64,000 nucleotides of DNA, from positions 186,001 through 250,000 of the forward strand of contig NZ_FOFI01000003.1 of assembly GCF_900110605.1 (NCBI RefSeq). The letters are read 5' to 3'. Position 1 is the first letter of the stretch. Each line of letters starts with the position of its first letter. The position numbers were made by a program, and so were the translations under genes. This DNA comes from Epilithonimonas lactis. Its GTDB lineage: Bacteria > Bacteroidota > Bacteroidia > Flavobacteriales > Weeksellaceae. Below the pieces are notes generated by a model. The model saw nothing but the letters and a program-made list of their open reading frames with translations. It was not told where the DNA came from and made no database searches. Shown one piece after another: positions 5,321 through 46,846 of the stretch.

Positions 5321-5466
5321 ACTCACCCTGTCATTCTGTAGAAGTCTCAACAAATTTTGGTTAGATTGCTACAGTGTGACAACATTATGTTTTGATTATA
5401 ATTCTATAATTTTAATATCTGTAAATGTTCTATTGATTAACAAAACTTCAATTTTTGTAGAAACCT

Positions 5467-5571
5467 ATAGCCCCGATTGCAACGGCATCCTTTTTTGCAT
5501 CTTCAGGCTTCGACTTCGCTCAGTCACCAAATGCAAAAAAGATATAGTGGAAAGCGGGATCAAGCTCCTAA
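5467..5571 (-). ncRNA. 3'-UTR structured repeat element, copy 1 (after purD)
   Basis: Read on the plus strand it begins ATAGCCCCGATTGCAACGG and ends GTGGAAAGCGGGATCAAGCT. Between these conserved ends is a hairpin whose arms are TTTTTTGCAT and ATGCAAAAAA. The end blocks can also pair (AGC with GCT, CCCG with CGGG). It begins about 40 bp after the purD stop, in purD's orientation. Four other copies or variants occur in the window, each just after a stop codon. The rest of the 5134-5609 gap holds only the repeats listed and AT-rich DNA. Confidence 0.6.
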
Positions 5572-7795: not shown

Positions 7796-9064
7796 TTAAA
7801 TCAACATATTAAGGACGTCAGGATTATCATTAAGGTACGATTCAAAATAACCGAGTTCTTGCATCCTTTGTTTTAAGCCGTCAAAATCTAAAGGATTGGA
7901 AAGCTCGATTCCGACGATAGCCAATGCGGTTTCCCGTGAGTTTTTCTTGGTATATTCGAAGTGCGTGATGTCGTCATTTGAGCCGAGGACATTGAGGACA
8001 AAATCTTTCAAAGAACCAGGACGTTGTGGGAATTTGACCATAAAATAATGCTTTAAACCATTGTACAGCAAAGCGCGCTCTTTGATTTCCTCCATTCTCG
8101 TAATGTCGTTGTTGCTTCCGCTTACGATGCAAACCACATTTTTCCCTTTGATTTGATTTCTATATTGTTCCAAAGCCGAGATAGAAAGGGCTCCGGCCGG
8201 TTCCAGAACAATCGCATCTTTATTATATAGTTGCAAAATCGTTTCACAAATCTTGCCTTCATCCACAGAAATACAATCTTCCAGTGCAGTTTTACAAATC
8301 TCAAAAGTCAAATCACCAACCCTTTTCACAGCCGCACCATCGACAAAACTATCAACTTCCGATAATTCTGTATTGATGTTGTTTTCGATGGATAATCTCA
8401 TTGAAGGTGCACCTTTTGGTTCTACTCCAATCAACTGAGTTTCTTTTGAAAGTTCCTTGAAGACCGTTGATATTCCTGAAGCCAAACCGCCGCCTCCAAT
8501 TGGAATGAAGATGAAATCGATATTCTCTTTTTGCTGTTCCAAAATTTCCAAAGCCAAAGTCGCCTGACCTTCAATAATCTGAACGTCATCAAATGGATGA
8601 ATGAAAGCGGCTCCCGAAGTTTCTGCAAATTCAAAAGCTGCAGTTTTTGAAGCATCAAAAGTATCGCCAACCAATCTGATTTCAGCGTAATTGCCGCCAA
8701 ACATTTCGACCTGTTCAAGCTTCTGTTTCGGTGTGGTGACCGGCATAAAAATCGTTCCTTTGATTTGAAGTTGCTTGCAGGAAAAAGCCACACCTTGCGC
8801 GTGATTTCCCGCACTGGCGCAGACAATGCCTTGAGAAACTTTGCCTTCGTTGAACAGCGTTTTGATTTTGTTATAAGCACCTCGCAATTTGTACGACCTC
8901 ACAGGTTGCAAATCTTCTCTTTTAAGGAAAATATTTGCTCCAAATTTTTCTGACAATCTCGCATTATATTGCAAAGGCGTGTAGTTCACAACATTTTCAA
9001 TACTTTTCCGGGCTTCTTTTACCGCTTCCAGCGTTGGAAATATGAGCGTTTCGTTCATCTTCAT
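7796..9064 (-). CDS. ilvA: Threonine ammonia-lyase (threonine dehydratase)
   Basis: The 422-residue protein deaminates threonine to 2-oxobutanoate, the committed step to isoleucine. The PLP lysine is Lys59 in SYKLRGAYN; the phosphate-binding loop is IGGGGLASG and the SGSNND segment follows. The C-terminal part (KHYFMVKFPQRPGSL) is an ACT-like regulatory domain, as in the shorter allosteric IlvA form. The start at 9064 (MKMNETLIF) or 9058 lies inside the end of the upstream ABC gene: the two reading frames overlap by 62-68 bp. It is the last gene of the ilv cluster. Confidence 0.95.
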   Translation of the reverse strand: MKMNETLIFPTLEAVKEARKSIENVVNYTPLQYNARLSEKFGANIFLKREDLQPVRSYKLRGAYNKIKTLFNEGKVSQGIVCASAGNHAQGVAFSCKQLQIKGTIFMPVTTPKQKLEQVEMFGGNYAEIRLVGDTFDASKTAAFEFAETSGAAFIHPFDDVQIIEGQATLALEILEQQKENIDFIFIPIGGGGLASGISTVFKELSKETQLIGVEPKGAPSMRLSIENNINTELSEVDSFVDGAAVKRVGDLTFEICKTALEDCISVDEGKICETILQLYNKDAIVLEPAGALSISALEQYRNQIKGKNVVCIVSGSNNDITRMEEIKERALLYNGLKHYFMVKFPQRPGSLKDFVLNVLGSNDDITHFEYTKKNSRETALAIVGIELSNPLDFDGLKQRMQELGYFESYLNDNPDVLNMLI

Positions 9065-10535
9065 TTATATTTATAGATTCTTTGATTTTGGTTTTAATTT
9101 TTGTGGTTCCGTTTTCCAGAACGAGTTTGTGGCTGAGTTTTTTTGGCAATTGTGATTCAAAATGTCCGACGTAAATCAACGATTGTCCCTGACTTGCCAA
9201 ATCATCAATCACCTGATTGAAATATTTCGTCTGTTCATTATCCATTCCCTGACAAGGCTCATCCAGAATCAGAAGTTTTGGCTTTTTAATCAATGTTCTT
9301 GCGAGTAAAGCCAAGCGTTGTTTTCCGAGTGGTAACGTATTTAACTTCTTATTTTTATCGGTCTTCAAATCGAAGAAATAGAGAATCTGTTCCAATTGTT
9401 GCTGTTGGTCAAAACTCAATTTCTGATACAAACTCATCGAATCGAAAAAACCAGAAGCAATGGTTTGTCCGACGTTCGCATTCATATCGAAATACCAGTG
9501 CAACTCGGGCGAAATCATTCCGATTTTTTGTTTAATATCCCAAATACTTTCTCCACTTCCCCGCTTCTGTCCGAAAAGATGAATTTCATTAGCATAAGCC
9601 TGCGGATGGTCGCCATTCAGTAAACTTAATAATGTAGATTTTCCTGAACCATTCTGACCTTGCAACAGCCACTGTTCGCCGGAATTCACTTCCCAATCGA
9701 TGTTTTTCAGGACTTGTTTTTCGCCGTAGGAAATATTGACATTTTCTAATTTGATTAAGTTTTCTCTCTGACTTTCATTATTGTTTTGAAGAAAAAAAGG
9801 AAGTGATTTTGATGTTCTTTCCTTGCCTTTAGAAAAGTCTTTTGGCGAATTTCTGTGAACTAATTTTCCATTTTCTATCTCAACAAAATATTGAACATTT
9901 TCGGGATATTCGTCATCATTATTAATAAAAATCAGTGTGACATTTTCTTGAATTAAATCATCAAACGCCTGATTCAAGAACTGTCTTGATTTCACATCCA
10001 AACCTGTGTAAGGTTGGTCGATAATCAGAACCTGAGGTTTTAACCAAAGCGCCTTTAACAATTGTAATTTTTTATGCTCACCGCTGGAAAGTTCTATCAG
10101 TTGTTGATTTTTGAAATTTTCAAATCCAAAAGATTCTAAGTGTGATTCTAAAATTTTAAAATCCAGATTTTCTTCTTTTGCGAAATGATTGAGTTCCGCA
10201 AAAACAGTTAATGTATCATTTTTAGCAGATTGATTATAACGTTGTTGATAGTAAAAATTGCGGTCACCTTCCAGATTGCTGAACTGAAACCAGTTGGAAA
10301 CGTACAGAATTTTCCTTGCCAACTTTGAAGTTTCATCAAAACTGACCTTAACTTTTCCTTCGAAATTTTTGATTTCGCCGGAAATGATTTTGGCTAAAGT
10401 TGTTTTTCCGCTTCCACTCAGACCGCCAAGCATCCAACATTCGCCGGAAGATATTTCCCAGTCAAAATCTTTCAGTACGACTTGGTTGCCGTACTGAAAG
10501 TTTAGATTTGAAATTTGGATGATTGGGGTTGACAT
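8997..10535 (-). CDS. ABC-type ATPase with two nucleotide-binding domains, ModF-like
   Basis: The protein has 512 residues from the preferred ATG at 10535 (MSTPIIQISNLNFQYG); an ATG eight codons earlier gives an unlikely N-terminus. It has two ABC domains and no membrane segment. Domain 1 has Walker A GGLSGSGKTT, signature LSSGEHKK and Walker B VLIIDQP. Domain 2 has Walker A GQNGSGKST, a degenerate signature LPLGKQRL and Walker B LLILDEPCQGMD. The layout matches ModF/PhrA, proteins of unclear function linked to molybdate transport genes. No permease or binding protein is nearby. It sits between ilvC and ilvA, and its last 22 residues overlap the start of ilvA. Confidence 0.85.
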   Translation of the reverse strand: MSTPIIQISNLNFQYGNQVVLKDFDWEISSGECWMLGGLSGSGKTTLAKIISGEIKNFEGKVKVSFDETSKLARKILYVSNWFQFSNLEGDRNFYYQQRYNQSAKNDTLTVFAELNHFAKEENLDFKILESHLESFGFENFKNQQLIELSSGEHKKLQLLKALWLKPQVLIIDQPYTGLDVKSRQFLNQAFDDLIQENVTLIFINNDDEYPENVQYFVEIENGKLVHRNSPKDFSKGKERTSKSLPFFLQNNNESQRENLIKLENVNISYGEKQVLKNIDWEVNSGEQWLLQGQNGSGKSTLLSLLNGDHPQAYANEIHLFGQKRGSGESIWDIKQKIGMISPELHWYFDMNANVGQTIASGFFDSMSLYQKLSFDQQQQLEQILYFFDLKTDKNKKLNTLPLGKQRLALLARTLIKKPKLLILDEPCQGMDNEQTKYFNQVIDDLASQGQSLIYVGHFESQLPKKLSHKLVLENGTTKIKTKIKESININEDERNAHISNAGSGKRSPEKY

Positions 10536-10555
10536 TATTTTTGGATTAATTTTGA

Positions 10556-10640
10556 ACACAAAGGGCGCAAAGATTTTTTTTTATTTTTATTGAAAATATT
10601 TTAAGGTTCACAAAGGCGTAAAACTCATCAAAGATTTTAA
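10556..10640. repeat. Dispersed intergenic repeat, copy B
   Basis: It shares ordered blocks with 5215-5320: CGCAAAGATTTTTTTT, TTATTGAAAA, TTTTAAGGTTCACAAAGG and CTCATCAAAGATTTTAA. It lies directly upstream of the ModF-like gene. As at copy A, it sits a short distance beyond a structured 3' element. Confidence 0.6.
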
Positions 10641-10685
10641 TAGTCAGTTTGAATTTAGAACAAACTTTATTTTTATGACAAATCC

Positions 10686-10790
10686 CATAGCCCCGATTGC
10701 AACGGCATCCTTTTTCTTTTCCGTTAACTTCGGCTACGCTCAGGCAACGGAAAAGAAAAAGATATAGTGGAAAGCGGGATTAGCTCCTAA
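10686..10790 (-). ncRNA. 3'-UTR structured repeat element, copy 2 (after ilvC)
   Basis: The ends match copy 1 (ATAGCCCCGATTGCAACGG and GTGGAAAGCGGGATTAGCT) while the internal stem has a different sequence: CTTTTTCTTTTCCGTT pairs with AACGGAAAAGAAAAAG. The stem is therefore kept by compensatory change. The element starts 1 bp after the ilvC stop codon, in ilvC's orientation. Confidence 0.65.
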
Positions 10791-10791
10791 T

Positions 10792-12273
10792 TTAAACTGT
10801 TTTGATAGACTTCATCGCCGTCATTGCCTGACGTAATTTTTTGCCGACAACCTCAACGGGATGATTTCTCAAAATATCGTTGACGTGAACCAATTGCGCG
10901 TTGTCAACCGATGTATTTTTCCCTTCGTTAAAGTCATTTCCGACCAAATCTGTGTCCACTGATTTCATAAAATCCGCCAGCAAAGGTTTGCAAGCCTGGT
11001 CGAAAAGGTAACAGCCGTACTCTGCGGTGTCGGAAATCACGCGATTCATCTCGAAGAGTTTTTTTCTGGCAATAGTGTTGGCAATCAAAGGCGTTTCGTG
11101 AAGCGATTCGTAATAAGCGGATTCCGGTTTGATGCCGGCTTCAACCATCGTTTCGAACGCCAGTTCCACGCCGGCTCTGATGAAAGCTGACATCAAAAGA
11201 TAGTTGTCAAAATAGTCCTGTTCATCGATTTTCACATCGCCGGCAGGTGTTTTTTCGAAAGCAGTTTCTCCTGTTTCTGCACGCCATTTCAGGAGGTTTT
11301 TGTCGCCGTTTGCCCAGTCTTCCATCATTGTTTTGGAGAACTCGCCGGAGATGATATCGTCCTGATGTTTTTGGAAAAGCGGACGCATAATGTCTTTCAA
11401 TTCCTCGGACAATTCGAAGGCTTTCAGTTTGGCAGGATTGGAAAGTCGGTCCAACATTCCGCTGACACCGCCGTGTTTCAGGGCTTCTGTGATAACCTCG
11501 ACGCCGTATTGAACCAATTTGGATGCGTAACCTGCGTCGATTCCTTTCTCCACCATTTTGTCGAACGAAAGGATAGAGCCCGTTTGTAAAAGTCCGCACA
11601 AAATGGTTTGTTCGCCCATCAAATCGGACTTCACCTCAGCTACAAAAGATGATTTCAAAACGCCGGCTTTGTGACCGCCAGTTCCTACGCAATAAGCTTT
11701 TGCCTCTGCCCAGCCTTTGTCTTGCGGGTCATTTTCGGGATGAACGGCAATCAAGGTTGGAACGCCGAAACCACGCAGATATTCGGCACGAACTTCGGAA
11801 CCTGGGCATTTTGGAGCGACCATAATTACCGTAATATCTTTACGGATTTGCATTCCTTCTTCCACGATGTTGAATCCGTGGGAATACGATAAAGTCGCAC
11901 CTTGCTTCATCAAAGGCTGAACGGCATTAATCACGGAAGTATGTTGTTTGTCGGGCGTCAGATTGATGACCAAATCTGCTGTCGGAATCAGTTCTTCGTA
12001 AGTGCCGACTTTGAAGTTATTGTCGGTTGCATTTTTCCACGAATCTCTCTTCTGGTCGATGGCTTCCTGACGCAATGTGTAAGAAACATCCAGTCCGCTG
12101 TCACGAAGATTCAGACCTTGATTGAGGCCTTGAGCGCCACATCCTACAACTACGATTTTCTTTCCTTTCAAAGCAGAAACGCCATCAGAAAACTCTGAAC
12201 TGTCCATAAAATCTGCCTGTCCTAACTGATGCAATTGGTCTCTGAGTGATAAGGTATTGAAATAATTTGCCAT
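10792..12273 (-). CDS. ilvC: Ketol-acid reductoisomerase, long (class II) form
   Basis: The 493-residue protein rearranges and reduces acetolactate and acetohydroxybutyrate with NADPH in valine and isoleucine synthesis. The Rossmann motif is [20 protein letters not shown], followed by the phosphate-binding TLRQEAI loop, which favours NADPH. The length and the duplicated C-terminal knotted domain match the class II enzyme of enteric bacteria and plants, not the 330-residue class I form. It follows ilvN after 103 bp that contain a hairpin, and its stop codon touches a structured repeat. Confidence 0.96.
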
Positions 12274-12376: not shown

Positions 12377-12967
12377 CTACATTGTGAAGACGTCGTCTCG
12401 TTTGTCCAGGAATTCATTTTCTACGATTTCGGCGGAAGGTTCTCTTTTTTCAAATTCGAGGACTTTATCGTGGATTCCTTTGCTGTTTTTGATGATGGCG
12501 ATTCTTGCGCCTCGTACAAATTCGATGAGTCCATACTTGTTGAGTTCTTCAGTTAATCGGTCGATTTCTTCACGATGTCCTGCAGTTTCGAAGACGATGT
12601 AATCCTGACGAATCACAACTGTAGATGCGCCGTATTGACGAAGCAATCTTTCGACGTAAACCTTTTCTGTCACCACACTTGCCGGAACTTTGTAAAGCGC
12701 CTGTTCCTGCCAGACAATCTCGTCGTCTGTGTTGAAATAAGCTTTCATAATGTCAATCTGCTTCTCGAGTTGTCGACAAAGTTTTCTTACGACCTCATCA
12801 TTTTCATTAATGACAATCGTAAACCTGTGAATGCCATCCACCTCGGAAGGCGACGTGTTCAAACTCTCGATATTGATTTTTCTGCGTGAGAAAATTCCTG
12901 ATATTCTGCCGATTAATCCTACAGAATTTTCGGTGTATAAGGTGATGGTAAATTCTTGTTTTTCCAT
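12377..12967 (-). CDS. ilvN: Acetolactate synthase small (regulatory) subunit
   Basis: The 196-residue protein has an N-terminal ACT domain (ITLYTENSVGLIGRISGIF), which in this family binds valine for feedback inhibition and activates the large subunit, and a C-terminal ALS_ss_C-type domain (GLIEFVRGARIAIIKNSKG). It lies 7 bp after ilvB, so the subunits are made from one message. Length is within the family range; it is sometimes named ilvH. Confidence 0.94.
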   Translation of the reverse strand: MEKQEFTITLYTENSVGLIGRISGIFSRRKINIESLNTSPSEVDGIHRFTIVINENDEVVRKLCRQLEKQIDIMKAYFNTDDEIVWQEQALYKVPASVVTEKVYVERLLRQYGASTVVIRQDYIVFETAGHREEIDRLTEELNKYGLIEFVRGARIAIIKNSKGIHDKVLEFEKREPSAEIVENEFLDKRDDVFTM

Positions 12968-12974
12968 TTCTTTT

Positions 12975-14717
12975 TTATTTAAGTCTGATTTCGGAAACCG
13001 ATGAACCTTGCGTTACCATTGGGAATACATTATTTTCTTTTCCAACCATTACTTCCAGAAGATAAGCGCCGTCGTGGTTGAGCATTGTTTCCAAAGCAGG
13101 TTTTAGATTTTCTCTTTCAGAAATCCTTTGTCCATCGATGTAATAAGCTTTTGCCACTGCGACGAAATCTGGACTTGTGATATTCACGAAAGAATAGCGT
13201 CTTTCATTGAACAATTGTTGCCACTGCCTTACCATTCCCAGAAACTCGTTGTTGAGAATCATAATTTTGACCTTCGCTCCGAACTGCATAATCGTTCCCA
13301 ACTCCTGCAAGGTCATTTGGAATCCGCCATCTCCGATAATGGCAACAACTGTTTTTTCCGGTGCGCCATACCAAGCGCCAATTGCAGCTGGCAAACCAAA
13401 TCCCATCGTTCCCAAACCACCTGATGTTACGCTAGATTTTGATTGATTGAATTTTGCATATCGGCAAGTGACCATCTGATGCTGGCCAACGTCTGTTGCG
13501 ATGATTGCGTCGCCGTTCGTTAAATCATTCAGAACTTTGATGACCTCTCCCATCGTCAAAACTTCAGATGTTGGATTGAGTTCTTCCTGGATAACTTCTT
13601 TGATTTCGTCTTTTTCCAATTCACGGAATTCGTTTAGCCAAGCTGAATGGTCATTTTCTGTGAGAAGCGCCGTCAACATCGGTAAAGTCTTTTTGCAATT
13701 TCCCCAAACCGGAACTGTGGTTTTCACATTTTTATCGATTTCGGCTGGGTCAATATCAAGATGAATGATTTTGGCTTGTTTCGCATATTTGTCCAAACGT
13801 CCCGTCACTCTATCATCGAAACGCATTCCGACCGCAATCAGAACATCGCATTCGTTGGTCATTACGTTTGGTGCGTAATTGCCGTGCATTCCCAACATTC
13901 CGACGTGTAAAGGATGAGTTGTTTCCAAAGCACTTAATCCCATTACAGTCGCTGCGGCTGGAAGATTTGTTTTTTCAATAAATGCTTTGAATTCCTCTTC
14001 TGCTTTTCCTAAAATCACGCCTTGTCCGAAAATGACAAATGGTTTTTTGGCTTGGTTAATGAGTTCTGCAGCTTGCTCGATATATTCGTTTCTAATTTCC
14101 GGTTCGGGGCGATAACTTCTAATATGATTGCATTTCTTATATCCCAGATATTCGAATAATTGGATTTGAGCATTTTTGGTAATGTCAATCAAAACCGGAC
14201 CTGGACGACCTGTGCTTGCGATGTGAAATGCTTTGGCAATCGCTTCAGGAATTTCTGTAGCATCCGTGACTTGGTAATTCCATTTTGTGACTGGCGTTGT
14301 GATGTTGATAACATCTGTTTCCTGGAAAGCATCCGTTCCCAAAAGTGATGCGAAAACCTGACCTGTGATGCACACAATCGGATTGCTGTCTATCATTGCA
14401 TCGGCCAAGCCTGTCACCAAATTCGTGGCGCCCGGACCACTCGTTGCAAACACAACGCCCGTTTTCCCAGAAGTTCTCGCAAATCCCTGAGCTGCGTGGA
14501 TTGCGCCTTGCTCGTGGCGAACCAAAATGTGTTTCAGTTTGTCGGAATAGTCGTACAGAGCATCATAGATTGGCATAATTGCACCACCAGGATAACCGAA
14601 AACAGTATGTACATTTTCCTGCAACAACGCTTCTAAAACAGCTTTTGAGCCACTGATTTCTATCGCTTTCTGAGACTCTGATTCTGTGTTTTTTATTTTT
14701 GAAATGGTATCATTCAT
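12975..14717 (-). CDS. ilvB: Acetolactate synthase large (catalytic) subunit
   Basis: The 580-residue thiamine-diphosphate enzyme forms acetolactate or acetohydroxybutyrate from pyruvate and a second 2-oxoacid. It has the catalytic glutamate in RHEQGAIHAAQGFAR, the FAD/central domain with VAVGMRFDDRVTG, and the ThDP-Mg motif from GDGGFQMTLQELGT to ILNNEFLGMVRQWQ. Length is typical. It is separated from ilvD by 214 bp that hold a variant structured repeat, and is followed after 7 bp by ilvN. Confidence 0.96.
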   Translation of the reverse strand: MNDTISKIKNTESESQKAIEISGSKAVLEALLQENVHTVFGYPGGAIMPIYDALYDYSDKLKHILVRHEQGAIHAAQGFARTSGKTGVVFATSGPGATNLVTGLADAMIDSNPIVCITGQVFASLLGTDAFQETDVINITTPVTKWNYQVTDATEIPEAIAKAFHIASTGRPGPVLIDITKNAQIQLFEYLGYKKCNHIRSYRPEPEIRNEYIEQAAELINQAKKPFVIFGQGVILGKAEEEFKAFIEKTNLPAAATVMGLSALETTHPLHVGMLGMHGNYAPNVMTNECDVLIAVGMRFDDRVTGRLDKYAKQAKIIHLDIDPAEIDKNVKTTVPVWGNCKKTLPMLTALLTENDHSAWLNEFRELEKDEIKEVIQEELNPTSEVLTMGEVIKVLNDLTNGDAIIATDVGQHQMVTCRYAKFNQSKSSVTSGGLGTMGFGLPAAIGAWYGAPEKTVVAIIGDGGFQMTLQELGTIMQFGAKVKIMILNNEFLGMVRQWQQLFNERRYSFVNITSPDFVAVAKAYYIDGQRISERENLKPALETMLNHDGAYLLEVMVGKENNVFPMVTQGSSVSEIRLK

Positions 14718-14931: not shown

Positions 14932-16617
14932 TTACAAATCGGTGACGCAACCTTGTGATGCGTCTGCTACAGATTTGGCATATTTGTACAACACGCCACG
15001 TTTTACTTTATAGTCTGGTTGTTGGAATTCGGCTTTTCTTTTATTAATTTCTTCGTCTGAGAGAAGTGCGTTGATGGTATTTTTTTCCGCATCCAATTCT
15101 ATCACATCGCCATCTTTTATCAAGCCAATCAATCCTCCAGAAAAAGCTTCCGGCGTAATGTGACCAACAACAAAACCGTGCGTTCCTCCGGAAAATCTGC
15201 CATCTGTAATCAAGGCTACATTTTTGCCTAAACCAGAACCCATCAAGGCAGACGTTGGTTTGAGCATTTCCGGCATTCCTGGTGCGCCTTTAGGACCTTC
15301 GTTTTTTATAACGACGACGTTTCCTTCTTTGATTTTTTTATCTTCGATGCCTTTGATGAATTCTTTTTCGCCGTCGAAAACGATGGCTGTTCCTTTGAAA
15401 TAATCACCTTCTTTACCTGTAATTTTTGCAACAGAGCCTTTCTCAGCAATATTTCCGTACAAAATTCTGATATGGCCTGTCGCTTTGATTGGGTCTTTGA
15501 TATCGTGAATGATATTTTGTTGTCTATCGATAATCGAAGTGACGTGTTCCAGATTTTCAGCAATTGTTTTTCCTGTTACTGTCAAACAATCTCCGTGAAG
15601 CAAGCCTAAATCCAACAGATATTTCATCACTGCCGGAACGCCACCAACATTATGAAGGTCTTCCATCAGGTATTTTCCGCTTGGTTTGAGGTCAGCCAAA
15701 AATGGTGTTTCATCACTTATTTTTTGAAAATCGTCTAAAGTCAAATCATAGCCGATGGACTTTGCGATGGCGATAAAATGGAGAACTGCATTGGTACTTC
15801 CACCAAGAATCATAATCAACCTCAACGCATTTTCGAACGCTTTTGGCGTCATTATATCGGATGGTTTGATGTCTTTTTCCAAAAGGATTTTTACGTAATG
15901 TCCAGCGAACTGGCATTCTTCTTTTTTCTCTTTGCTTAAAGCTGGATAAGATGACGAATAGGGTAAACTCATTCCGAGTGCTTCGATTGCTGAAGCCATT
16001 GTGTTGGCTGTGTACATTCCGCCGCACGCACCGGCGCTTGGACAGGAGTTTTTTATCACACCTTTGAAATCTTCGTCAGAAATTTTACCTGCGATTTTGT
16101 TTCCCAAAGCTTCGAAAGCGGAAACGATGTTCAAATCCTGACCTTTGTAATGTCCAGGCGCAATACTTCCGCCATAAACCATTATCGAAGGTCTGTCTAA
16201 TCTCGCCATTGCCATCAAAGAACCCGGCATATTTTTGTCGCAACCCGGAACGGTAATCAATCCGTCATAATATTGACCGGCACAAACTGCCTCGATAGAG
16301 TCTGCAATGATGTCGCGACTTACGAGCGAATAACGCATTCCGTCGGTTCCATTGGTCATTCCGTCGCTAATTCCGATGGTGTGGAACATTAAGCCAACTA
16401 AGTTTTGCTCTTTGACTCCTTTTTTTACGATTTCCGCCAAACCATTCAGGTGCATATTGCAAGTGTTGCCGTCGTAGCCCATACTTGCGATTCCAATTTG
16501 TGCCTTGTCGAAATCCTCTTCTTCAAAACCGATTCCGTAAAACATTGCCTGAGTTGCAGGTTGCGTCGGGTCTTTGGTAAGTGTTTTGGAATATTTATTA
16601 AGTTCTACGTTACACAT
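14932..16617 (-). CDS. ilvD: Dihydroxy-acid dehydratase
   Basis: The 561-residue Fe-S enzyme dehydrates dihydroxy acids to the 2-oxoacids of valine and isoleucine. Signatures are [25 protein letters not shown] with cluster-ligand cysteines, and [20 protein letters not shown] near the C-terminus. Length is normal for the family. Its ATG lies 8 bp inside the end of ilvE (16610-16617), so translation of the two is probably coupled. Confidence 0.96.
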
Positions 16618-17512
16618 ATTGCAGGTTTGATTTCAGGTATGAATAATCTTCTTCTAACACCAAATGACGATAAGCTGTCTGAACTTTCGATGCTAAACTC
16701 TCTTCCCAATTCAGTTTGAAAGGAACATCATCAAGAGAACCCAATGCTACAATTTCGGCTGCTGTTCCACAGAAAAAACCGGCGTCTGCACCTTTCATTT
16801 CTTCTGGTTTGAAGAATTTTTCCTCGTAAGGAATTCCCAGTTGGTCACAGATTTCAAAAACTGTTGCTCGTGTGATTCCGGGAAGAATGCTTCCTTTCGC
16901 AGGTGTGAAAAGTTTGCCGTCTCTTTCGAAGAAGATATTAGCGCCGGAACTTTCTGCCACATTTCCATCGGCATCCAAAACCAGAGCTTCATCGAAACCT
17001 TTGTCCTTTGCTTCCTGACAAGCCAAAATCGAGTTTACATAATGACCGCTCACTTTTGCTTCCACTTTGAAAGCTTTCGGATTTGGACGTTCGAATGATG
17101 AAGTCATAATTCTCATTTGATTGGCCATATAACCATTGTCCCAATTCCAAACTTCAATGACGAGAAAACTTTTTTGTCCCTTTGACAGAGCCATATTGGG
17201 AGAACAAATGACGAGTGGACGAATGTATGCGTTTGATAAATTATTAATTTCCAATAATTTGTAAGTTGCTTCCACCATTTCTTCGGTAGAATAATCGAAA
17301 GGCATCATCATCGTTTGGGCAGACCTTCTTAGTCTGTCGTAATGTTCTTCCGCTTTGAAGATTTTGGTTCCATTTGCGGTTTTATAAGATTTAATCCCTT
17401 CGAAAACAGCATATCCGTAGTGTAGCGATTGACCGTACAAATCGGTCTTGGCTTCTTTTGCTTTTACATATTCCCCATCAAAAAAGAGAACACTGTCGTC
17501 ATTGTAATACAT
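16610..17512 (-). CDS. ilvE: Branched-chain amino acid aminotransferase
   Basis: The 300-residue fold-type IV PLP enzyme transfers the amino group in the last step of isoleucine, leucine and valine synthesis. It starts [20 protein letters not shown]; the PLP lysine is in the [12 protein letters not shown] segment, with the cofactor loop [10 protein letters not shown] and the [11 protein letters not shown] motif after it. It is the first full gene of the ilv operon, 108 bp after the leader peptide stop, beyond the attenuator terminator. Confidence 0.95.
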
Positions 17513-17550: not shown

Positions 17551-17583
17551 AATAAAAAACCATCCTCGCAGTGAGAATGGTCT
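17551..17583 (-). terminator. ilv attenuator terminator
   Basis: On the minus strand ACCATTCTC (17581-17573) pairs with GAGGATGGT (17567-17559) around a 5-base loop, followed by TTTTTTATTTT. It lies between the leader peptide and ilvE, where a terminator would stop all ilv transcription. Its 5' arm (CCATTCTCAC) can instead pair with GTGAGTGATGG at 17624-17614, which overlaps the leader stop codon, giving an antiterminator. Confidence 0.8.
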
Positions 17584-17620
17584 GTATTATTTCAATTCAA
17601 TAATTAGTACAAGCCATCAC

Positions 17621-17677
17621 TCACCACCGGAATCCGATAATGACAAGAATGACAAGAATAATGATTGTGCTATTCAT
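17621..17677 (-). CDS. ilvL: ilv operon leader peptide (attenuation)
   Basis: This 18-codon ORF encodes MNSTIIILVILVIIGFRW and ends in TGA. Residues 5-14 are ten consecutive Ile, Leu or Val codons (six Ile, two Leu, two Val), exactly the end products of the downstream operon. Its stop codon lies within the strand that would form the antiterminator. A ribosome stalled for lack of charged branched-chain tRNA would leave that strand free and prevent termination; a ribosome reaching the stop would cover it and allow the terminator. Too short to be found by length alone; the call rests on composition and context. Confidence 0.82.
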   Translation of the reverse strand: MNSTIIILVILVIIGFRW

Positions 17678-17696
17678 CTGTTTGTTTTCAACGGTA

Positions 17697-17704
17697 CAAA
17701 TGTA
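17697..17704 (-). promoter_or_regulatory. Candidate -7 promoter box of the ilv leader (TACATTTG)
   Basis: The minus strand reads TACATTTG, a full TAnnTTTG match, 20 bp upstream of the leader ATG, giving a 5' UTR of about 13 bases. No clear -33 TTG lies 19-21 bp upstream. The remaining DNA to 17934 is AT-rich and holds no recognised gene. Confidence 0.5.
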
Positions 17705-17934: not shown

Positions 17935-17964
17935 CGAAAAATCCACCGATTGGTGGATTTTTCG
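17935..17964 (-). terminator. Terminator of the Sus-locus MFS gene
   Basis: Arms CGAAAAATCCACC (17935-17947) and GGTGGATTTTTCG (17952-17964) pair perfectly with a GATT loop; the minus strand continues TTTTTAATG. It lies 18 bp after the MFS stop and separates the sugar locus from the ilv operon. Confidence 0.88.
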
Positions 17965-22834: not shown

Positions 22835-22850
22835 GATTGAAGTAGAAACC

Positions 22851-22941
22851 CATAGCCCCGATTGCAGCGGTTACCCCACAGCAAGCCTTGGGAAAAGCTT
22901 TGGCGCGAGGAGTAATAGCGGAAAGCGGGAAATAGCTCCTA
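22851..22941 (-). ncRNA. 3'-UTR structured repeat element, copy 4 (after GH97)
   Basis: It has the conserved ends CATAGCCCCGATTGCAGCGG and GCGGAAAGCGGGAAATAGCT, with an inner part TTACCCCACAGCAAGCC to GCGCGAGGAGTAA that differs from copies 1 and 2 but closely matches the copy at 46756. It follows the GH97 stop by about 65 bp and precedes a terminator. Confidence 0.62.
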
Positions 22942-46746: not shown

Positions 46747-46755
46747 GTAGTCATT

Positions 46756-46846
46756 CATAGCCCCGATAGTAACGGTTACCCCACAGCAAACCTTGGGAAA
46801 AGCTTTGGCGCGAGGAGTAATAGTGGATAGCGGGATTAAGCTCCTA
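46756..46846 (-). ncRNA. 3'-UTR structured repeat element, copy 5 (after AIM24)
   Basis: Conserved ends CATAGCCCCGATAGTAACGG and GTGGATAGCGGGATTAAGCT; the inner part (TTACCCCACAGCAAACCTTG to GCGCGAGGAGTAA) matches copy 4 closely. It starts 5 bp after the AIM24 stop and lies before that gene's terminator, so it would be part of the message. Confidence 0.65.

Follow-up and report, generated by a model that had tools for sequence, protein, structure and literature searches.

A probable ribosome-mediated transcription attenuator ahead of the ilv operon of Epilithonimonas lactis

Introduction

The ilv operon of Epilithonimonas lactis is very probably controlled by a ribosome-mediated transcription attenuator. 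On the minus strand of the window (the whole stretch of 64,000 nucleotides that was analysed), a promoter box is followed by an 18-codon leader ORF, an intrinsic terminator and the genes ilvE-ilvD-ilvB-ilvN-ilvC (Table 1); these elements are conserved in relatives, and the pairings that they allow on paper are mutually exclusive, while translation of the leader, stalling of the ribosome, termination and a response to amino acids are what we infer from this arrangement. In the proposed mechanism, transcription would start just upstream of the leader ORF, as judged from the promoter box, and a ribosome would enter the leader at once. With charged Ile-tRNA and Val-tRNA it would reach the stop codon and cover segment 2, upon which segments 3 and 4 would form the terminator and transcription would end before ilvE; if Ile-tRNA or Val-tRNA were short, the ribosome would wait near codons 9-13 and cover segment 1, and the free segment 2 would pair with segment 3 before segment 4 is made, blocking the terminator and allowing the operon to be transcribed.

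Leader-peptide attenuators are best known from enteric bacteria as ilvL, ivbL, leuL, thrL, hisL and trpL, and the initial annotation had recognized their layout in this locus, a comparison that the sequence and the pairing now support well. The likeness lies in a short ORF rich in codons for the products of the pathway, in alternative stems, the third of which is a possible one here, and in an intrinsic terminator before the first structural gene; unlike its enteric counterparts, the Epilithonimonas leader has other sequences, another gene order and a promoter box of the TAnnTTTG type, shows no Shine-Dalgarno site ahead of its ATG that is evident by eye, and matches no Rfam family at gathering score. 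The mechanism type is already known from textbooks, and the survey of Vitreschak et al. from 2004 is said to mention such attenuators in Bacteroidetes; the part that we did not find in print is the arrangement of like attenuators in series, which occurs in relatives and is described in the last section. Within the same phylum, clues have already been reported, namely predicted leader-peptide attenuators of amino-acid biosynthesis operons in Flavobacterium psychrophilum (PMC9723704) and small ORFs reminiscent of leader peptides in Bacteroides thetaiotaomicron (PMC7366714), and no ilv leader sequence is named in the passages of these two papers that were compared.

What makes the locus of wider value is the demand that this kind of control places on the cell. 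Leader-peptide attenuation requires that the leading ribosome keep pace with RNA polymerase, and the close coupling of the two that had been suggested for this genome would follow from the attenuation mechanism, as read from the layout. An enteric-style set of leaders (ilv, his, trp and thr) in one Bacteroidota genome, the ilv leader having no evident Shine-Dalgarno site, would provide natural reporters of transcription-translation coupling in the phylum.

Leader ORF and terminator

Table 1. Features of the ilv locus in the window, in order of transcription
Feature	Position	Strand	Basis or remark
Promoter-box match TACATTTG (TAnnTTTG of flavobacteria)	17697..17704	-	consensus from PMC9723704
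Leader ORF MNSTIIILVILVIIGFRW, including stop codon	17621..17677	-	ATG at 17677, stop TGA 17623-17621
Predicted control codons 9-13 (V I L V I)	17639..17653	-	ribosome-position folding
Segment 1; could pair with 17630-17621 (possible pause or anti-antiterminator stem)	17634..17643	-	folding
Segment 2, across the leader stop codon	17614..17628	-	folding, pairing statistics, alignment
Segment 3, terminator 5' arm and loop; partner of segment 2	17568..17580	-	folding, alignment
Terminator stem-loop, arms ACCATTCTC / GAGGATGGT and flanking pairs, T run behind	17557..17583	-	terminator scan, folding, alignment
ilvE, first gene after the attenuator	16610..17512	-	TIGR01122, 254.3 bits (cut-off 245.55)
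ilvD	14932..16617	-	TIGR00110 above cut-off
ilvB	12975..14717	-	TIGR00118 above cut-off
ilvN	12377..12967	-	TIGR00119 above cut-off
ilvC	10792..12273	-	NF003557 above cut-off
ilvA	7796..9064	-	NF006390 above cut-off; downstream of a double ABC ATPase gene (8997-10559)

The leader ORF had been singled out for ten consecutive Ile/Leu/Val codons, and this run, at codons 5-14, turns out to be unique among the 905 short ORFs of the window (8-45 codons with an ATG start, both strands), where only this leader, counted also with a longer in-frame start, reaches ten out of ten. Among 72,753 short ORFs in 60 windows simulated with a second-order Markov model none did so and five reached nine out of ten, and this null, together with the conservation of the leader, rules out a chance ORF. 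The promoter box lies 19 nt upstream of the leader ATG, and a TAnnTTTG box is found 10-60 nt ahead of the first leader in 87 of 132 leader-bearing regions, with about 0.09 expected per 50-nt window. The terminator ahead of ilvE is likewise borne out, with 11 counted pairs rather than the 9 bp first given, a loop of 5 and a T tail; the 600-nt stretch contains two terminator-like sites (the other at 17935-17964 on the plus strand) against a mean of 0.1 in shuffled sequences, while folding of the leader as a whole is only moderately above shuffles (z -2.1, with 6 of 200 shuffles equally good). Further downstream, ilvA may belong to the ilvE-ilvC transcript.

A structured 5' leader of an amino-acid operon might also be a T-box, a riboswitch or an attenuator bound by a protein, all of which would work without translation, and we regard this as the least probable of the readings considered, with next to no chance. 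No Rfam family reaches gathering score in the leader, the only matches in the whole window being four to Flavo-1 located elsewhere, and the feature that is kept across lineages is a coding run of Ile and Val codons; a T-box or riboswitch was rejected for want of an Rfam match in the leader.

The four Flavo-1 RNA matches (Rfam RF01705) are all on the plus strand, at 5465-5565, 10685-10785, 22850-22936 and 46755-46841, and the second of them lies across from the intergenic space that separates ilvC from the ABC ATPase gene.

Alternative structures and the position of the ribosome

The switch that attenuation calls for is present as a set of overlapping complementary segments. The segment GTGAGTGATGG (17624-17614), which runs across the leader stop codon, is able to pair with CCATTCTCAC (17580-17571), as had been proposed, and the duplex is longer than first described: 17628-17614 pairs with 17580-17568 over 13 bp with one bulged base and extends into the terminator loop. 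At -15.6 kcal/mol, this duplex of segments 2 and 3 compares with -12.7 for the core terminator. A third possible stem of 10 pairs, 17643-17634 with 17630-17621, completes the classical three-stem set, in which segment 1 contains the last two Ile codons of the leader and its partner is the start of segment 2.

The movement of a ribosome through the leader was simulated by equilibrium folding of the uncovered RNA at each codon in turn, the ribosome being taken to mask 12 nt counted from the first A-site base. With the ribosome at codons 9-13 (9-12 under a slightly different criterion) the final structure is the antiterminator, which at codon 11 is favored by 3.3 kcal/mol over the terminator; with no ribosome, or with one at codons 1-8 or at any codon from 14 through the stop, it is the terminator. 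Every footprint from 8 to 19 nt gives a five-codon antiterminator block and the terminator at the stop codon, and the block lies inside the Ile/Leu/Val run (codons 7-14) for footprints of 9-19 nt and at codons 11-15 for 8 nt, with one extra isolated antiterminator codon upstream (codons 3-7) for 8 of the 12 footprints. When folding is stopped before arm 4 (segment 4) is made, the antiterminator also forms without a ribosome and at codons 1-16, so the protective role of the stem between segments 1 and 2 is not secured. By folding, then, the antiterminator excludes the terminator, is freed at the predicted control codons and is hidden at the stop codon, a behavior that is less selective before arm 4.

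Conservation of the leader and of its pairing

Within the genus, an ortholog of this ilvE is present in 16 of 23 Epilithonimonas genomes, and a leader with a terminator is found at the same position in all 16. A search for the core motif TCATTATCGGATTCCGRTGGTGAG that tolerated two mismatches gave one hit per genome in these 16 and none in the other seven, so that, as judged from these searches, the leader and ilvE are kept or lost together within the genus. The seven genomes that have neither this ilvE nor the motif are G001, G008, G009, G011, G014, G016 and G020; their one remaining match is to a distant aminotransferase, which suggests that these strains have lost the ilv operon.

Pairing statistics were gathered over 151 of 157 distinct leaders, six spurious ones being excluded. 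The duplex of segments 2 and 3 has a mean energy of -14.4 kcal/mol against -7.6 with the spacer shuffled, and in 100 of the 151 leaders none of 40 shuffles equalled the real duplex. In folding before arm 4, segment 3 is paired upstream in 109 of 151 leaders with the ribosome in the run (45/45 of those that share with the window an IIG-like motif at the end of the run, and 64/106 of the others), in 80 of 151 without a ribosome and in only 3 of 151 with the ribosome at the stop codon. Shuffled sequences satisfy the ribosome-in-run test in 47% of cases for the window-like group and 21% for the others, and real leaders were tried at every Ile/Leu/Val codon and shuffles at the last four only, which favors the real leaders in the pairing fraction and not in the duplex energies; the comparison of duplex energies is therefore the more telling one. 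In the simulation of the final structure, leaders of the window type mostly switch, and many relatives with stronger terminators give the terminator at all positions.

Across lineages, the partners appear to have been kept matched. For 22 hand-picked lineage representatives, cognate segments 2 and 3 have a mean duplex energy of -16.1 kcal/mol against -10.6 when permuted, and none of 100,000 permutations was as low; taken singly, 10 of the 22 find their best partner in the cognate segment 3, and for 12 a non-cognate one scores better. In several Chryseobacterium the leader stop codon lies further downstream, which makes segment 2 coding, and its sequence is still kept.

Closer to home, an alignment of 37 sequences (37 of 38 references, L140 being omitted as distant) has 97.5% of cells paired in the antiterminator, 97.0% in the terminator and 99.5% in the 10-bp stem of segments 1 and 2, with 30-70% in controls slid by 1-3 columns. 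Covariation in the alternative stems had been put forward as a check, and the outcome is divided: the pairing is kept across lineages, but two-sided changes are thin in close relatives, amounting to one antiterminator pair, two terminator pairs and none in the stem of segments 1 and 2, a stretch that is also coding. The covarying antiterminator pair (A-U in 15, G-U in 14, G-C in 8) is located in the terminator loop and therefore cannot be accounted for by the terminator. Shuffles reached the covariation score in 3, 11 and 404 of 500 trials for antiterminator, terminator and stem of segments 1 and 2, respectively, and the number of two-sided pairs is not unusual (256, 132 and 500 of 500).

The same alignment bears on the idea that translation of the leader acts not through an intrinsic hairpin, and instead through Rho-dependent termination or access to the ilvE start, for which there is a precedent in the leader peptides without intrinsic terminators predicted for cys operons of Mycobacterium (PMC1262725). 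In the present locus, an intrinsic terminator with a T run stands between the leader and ilvE, its arms are kept in the 37 close relatives and so is the partner segment, and we consider control of this kind very improbable beside attenuation at the hairpin.

Distribution in Bacteroidota and the amino acids sensed

The initial annotation had set conservation of the leader in relatives as a test beforehand, and beyond the 16 of 16 genomes of the genus, the leader is found ahead of ilvE in 103 of 108 sampled Bacteroidota regions. These 108 regions comprise the own genome, 15 others of the genus, 74 further family members and 18 from a phylum search, and were supplemented with 36 named records (of 38; two were too short), partly from the same strains; the sample is not random, as 137 of 296 genomes searched had a good ilvE match and 90 of these 137 were chosen, some by rank and others by hand, and the phylum search gave such a match in only 22 of 296 genomes. 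The detector, which asked for an ORF with at least five I/L/V in 10 residues and a terminator behind it, gave a leader no more than 600 nt from ilvE in 97 of the 108 regions, after removal of hits with nine peptide prefixes that were mostly C-terminal ends of the upstream gene before its own terminator (the hit at position -560 in the own genome is an example). Five Chryseobacterium-like genomes have their leader further upstream (G267, G174, G221, G210 and G276; those of G221 and G210 were established through the twin records L142 and L132, that of G276 by eye), and G578 has a leader too. In G057 and G327, ilvE lies directly downstream of a gene that we take to be leuB from gene order and sequence, and detector and inspection together found no trustworthy leader ahead of ilvE in G415, G297 and G366.

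A Chryseobacterium group (L131, L132, L142, L171, L172, L174 and L175) has several hundred extra bases between the ilv terminator and ilvE, which in most members contain no long ORF.

Turning to the codons themselves, Ile is invariant at codons 6, 7, 10 and 13 in all 32 usable rows, and Val is found at codon 9 in 30 of 32 and at codon 12 in 25 (with Ile in five more). At codon 8 the rows are split between Leu (15), Ile (15) and Phe (2), and at codon 11 between Leu (16), Ser (10), Phe (4) and Ile (2), so that conservation does not extend to the Leu codons. Of 19 alternative codon states at codons 5-14, 12 still specify Ile, Leu or Val; single-base changes would be expected to do so about half the time, and this count by itself therefore proves little. 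Because Ile and then Val are conserved across leaders and Leu codons are not, the attenuator would sense mainly Ile and Val, which this operon makes, rather than all three branched-chain residues alike; this narrows the branched-chain sensing first proposed.

Small hydrophobic toxins of similar length are known, and with eighteen very hydrophobic residues the product of the ORF might be a membrane peptide with a function of its own, such as a type I toxin, and the terminator would then do no more than end its transcript. In 124 distinct leader peptides, the stretch selected for I/L/V consists of 57% Ile, 18% Val and 7% Leu with only 4% F/M/A/W/C/Y, a make-up that argues against a membrane peptide, as do the loss of the core motif along with ilvE in the genus, the lineage-specific ways in which the stop-codon region pairs with the terminator arm, and the presence in the same genome of leaders rich in His, Trp or Thr ahead of the his, trp and thr genes. 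A membrane peptide or toxin was rejected on residue make-up, loss with the operon and these parallel leaders, and we give it a very slim chance against an attenuator.

Other leaders in the genome and attenuators in series

The ilv leader has company of like design in its own genome, where His-, Trp- and Thr/Ile-rich leader ORFs precede hisG (MTTQFMHHHHHFLAQTGR, locus L164), trpE (MKSMNKNNWWWLSNSLSGLKGLSVF, L165) and thrA (MNLTITTTISTTTTTVCRGKVCM, L169). A terminator accompanies each of them, and a TAnnTTTG box starts 26, 13 and 30 nt upstream, respectively. Folding before arm 4 yields the antiterminator for a ribosome at codons 3-11 of the hisG leader (His at 7-11), codons 6-13 of the trpE leader (Trp at 9-11) and codons 1-15 of the thrA leader, and in none of the three for a ribosome at the stop codon; the final structure is the terminator at every position in all three. 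No leader with a terminator was found ahead of pheA in this genome. The genome also gave no match to the LeuA dimerisation domain (PF08502), which is present in 14 of 14 control genomes, and leucine synthesis may be absent or may proceed via another enzyme form.

Among the relatives, 45 of the 108 regions contain two leader-plus-terminator units within 600 nt upstream of ilvE, a count that becomes 46 of 144 once the named records are added, and in all 46 the stretch from the first terminator to the second leader is free of a TAnnTTTG box. Examples with Ile/Val-rich leaders are L150 (G549), L071 (G222), L091 (G097) and L162 (G360). In the literature on tandem leaders we found no published case of Ile/Val attenuators in series ahead of ilv. 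The nearest system is the mgtCBR leader of Salmonella, in which tandem attenuators with two leader ORFs in one leader RNA respond to ATP and proline (PMC3641672); two leader ORFs with attenuators per leader RNA are also what many of the relatives have, the difference being that mgtCBR senses different signals, the units in series of the relatives would sense the same residues, and the window has one unit. It is an even call whether Bacteroidota ilv operons often stand under two or three same-residue attenuators in series behind a single promoter. In that case a polymerase would have to clear every unit in turn, the effects of the units would roughly multiply to give the total repression, and Epilithonimonas with its one unit would represent a reduced form; the arrangement would then offer a natural example of similar sensors multiplying their control. 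All 16 Epilithonimonas genomes have one unit each, and in G549 three can be read by eye, the first with a TTG start and the last two nearly identical.
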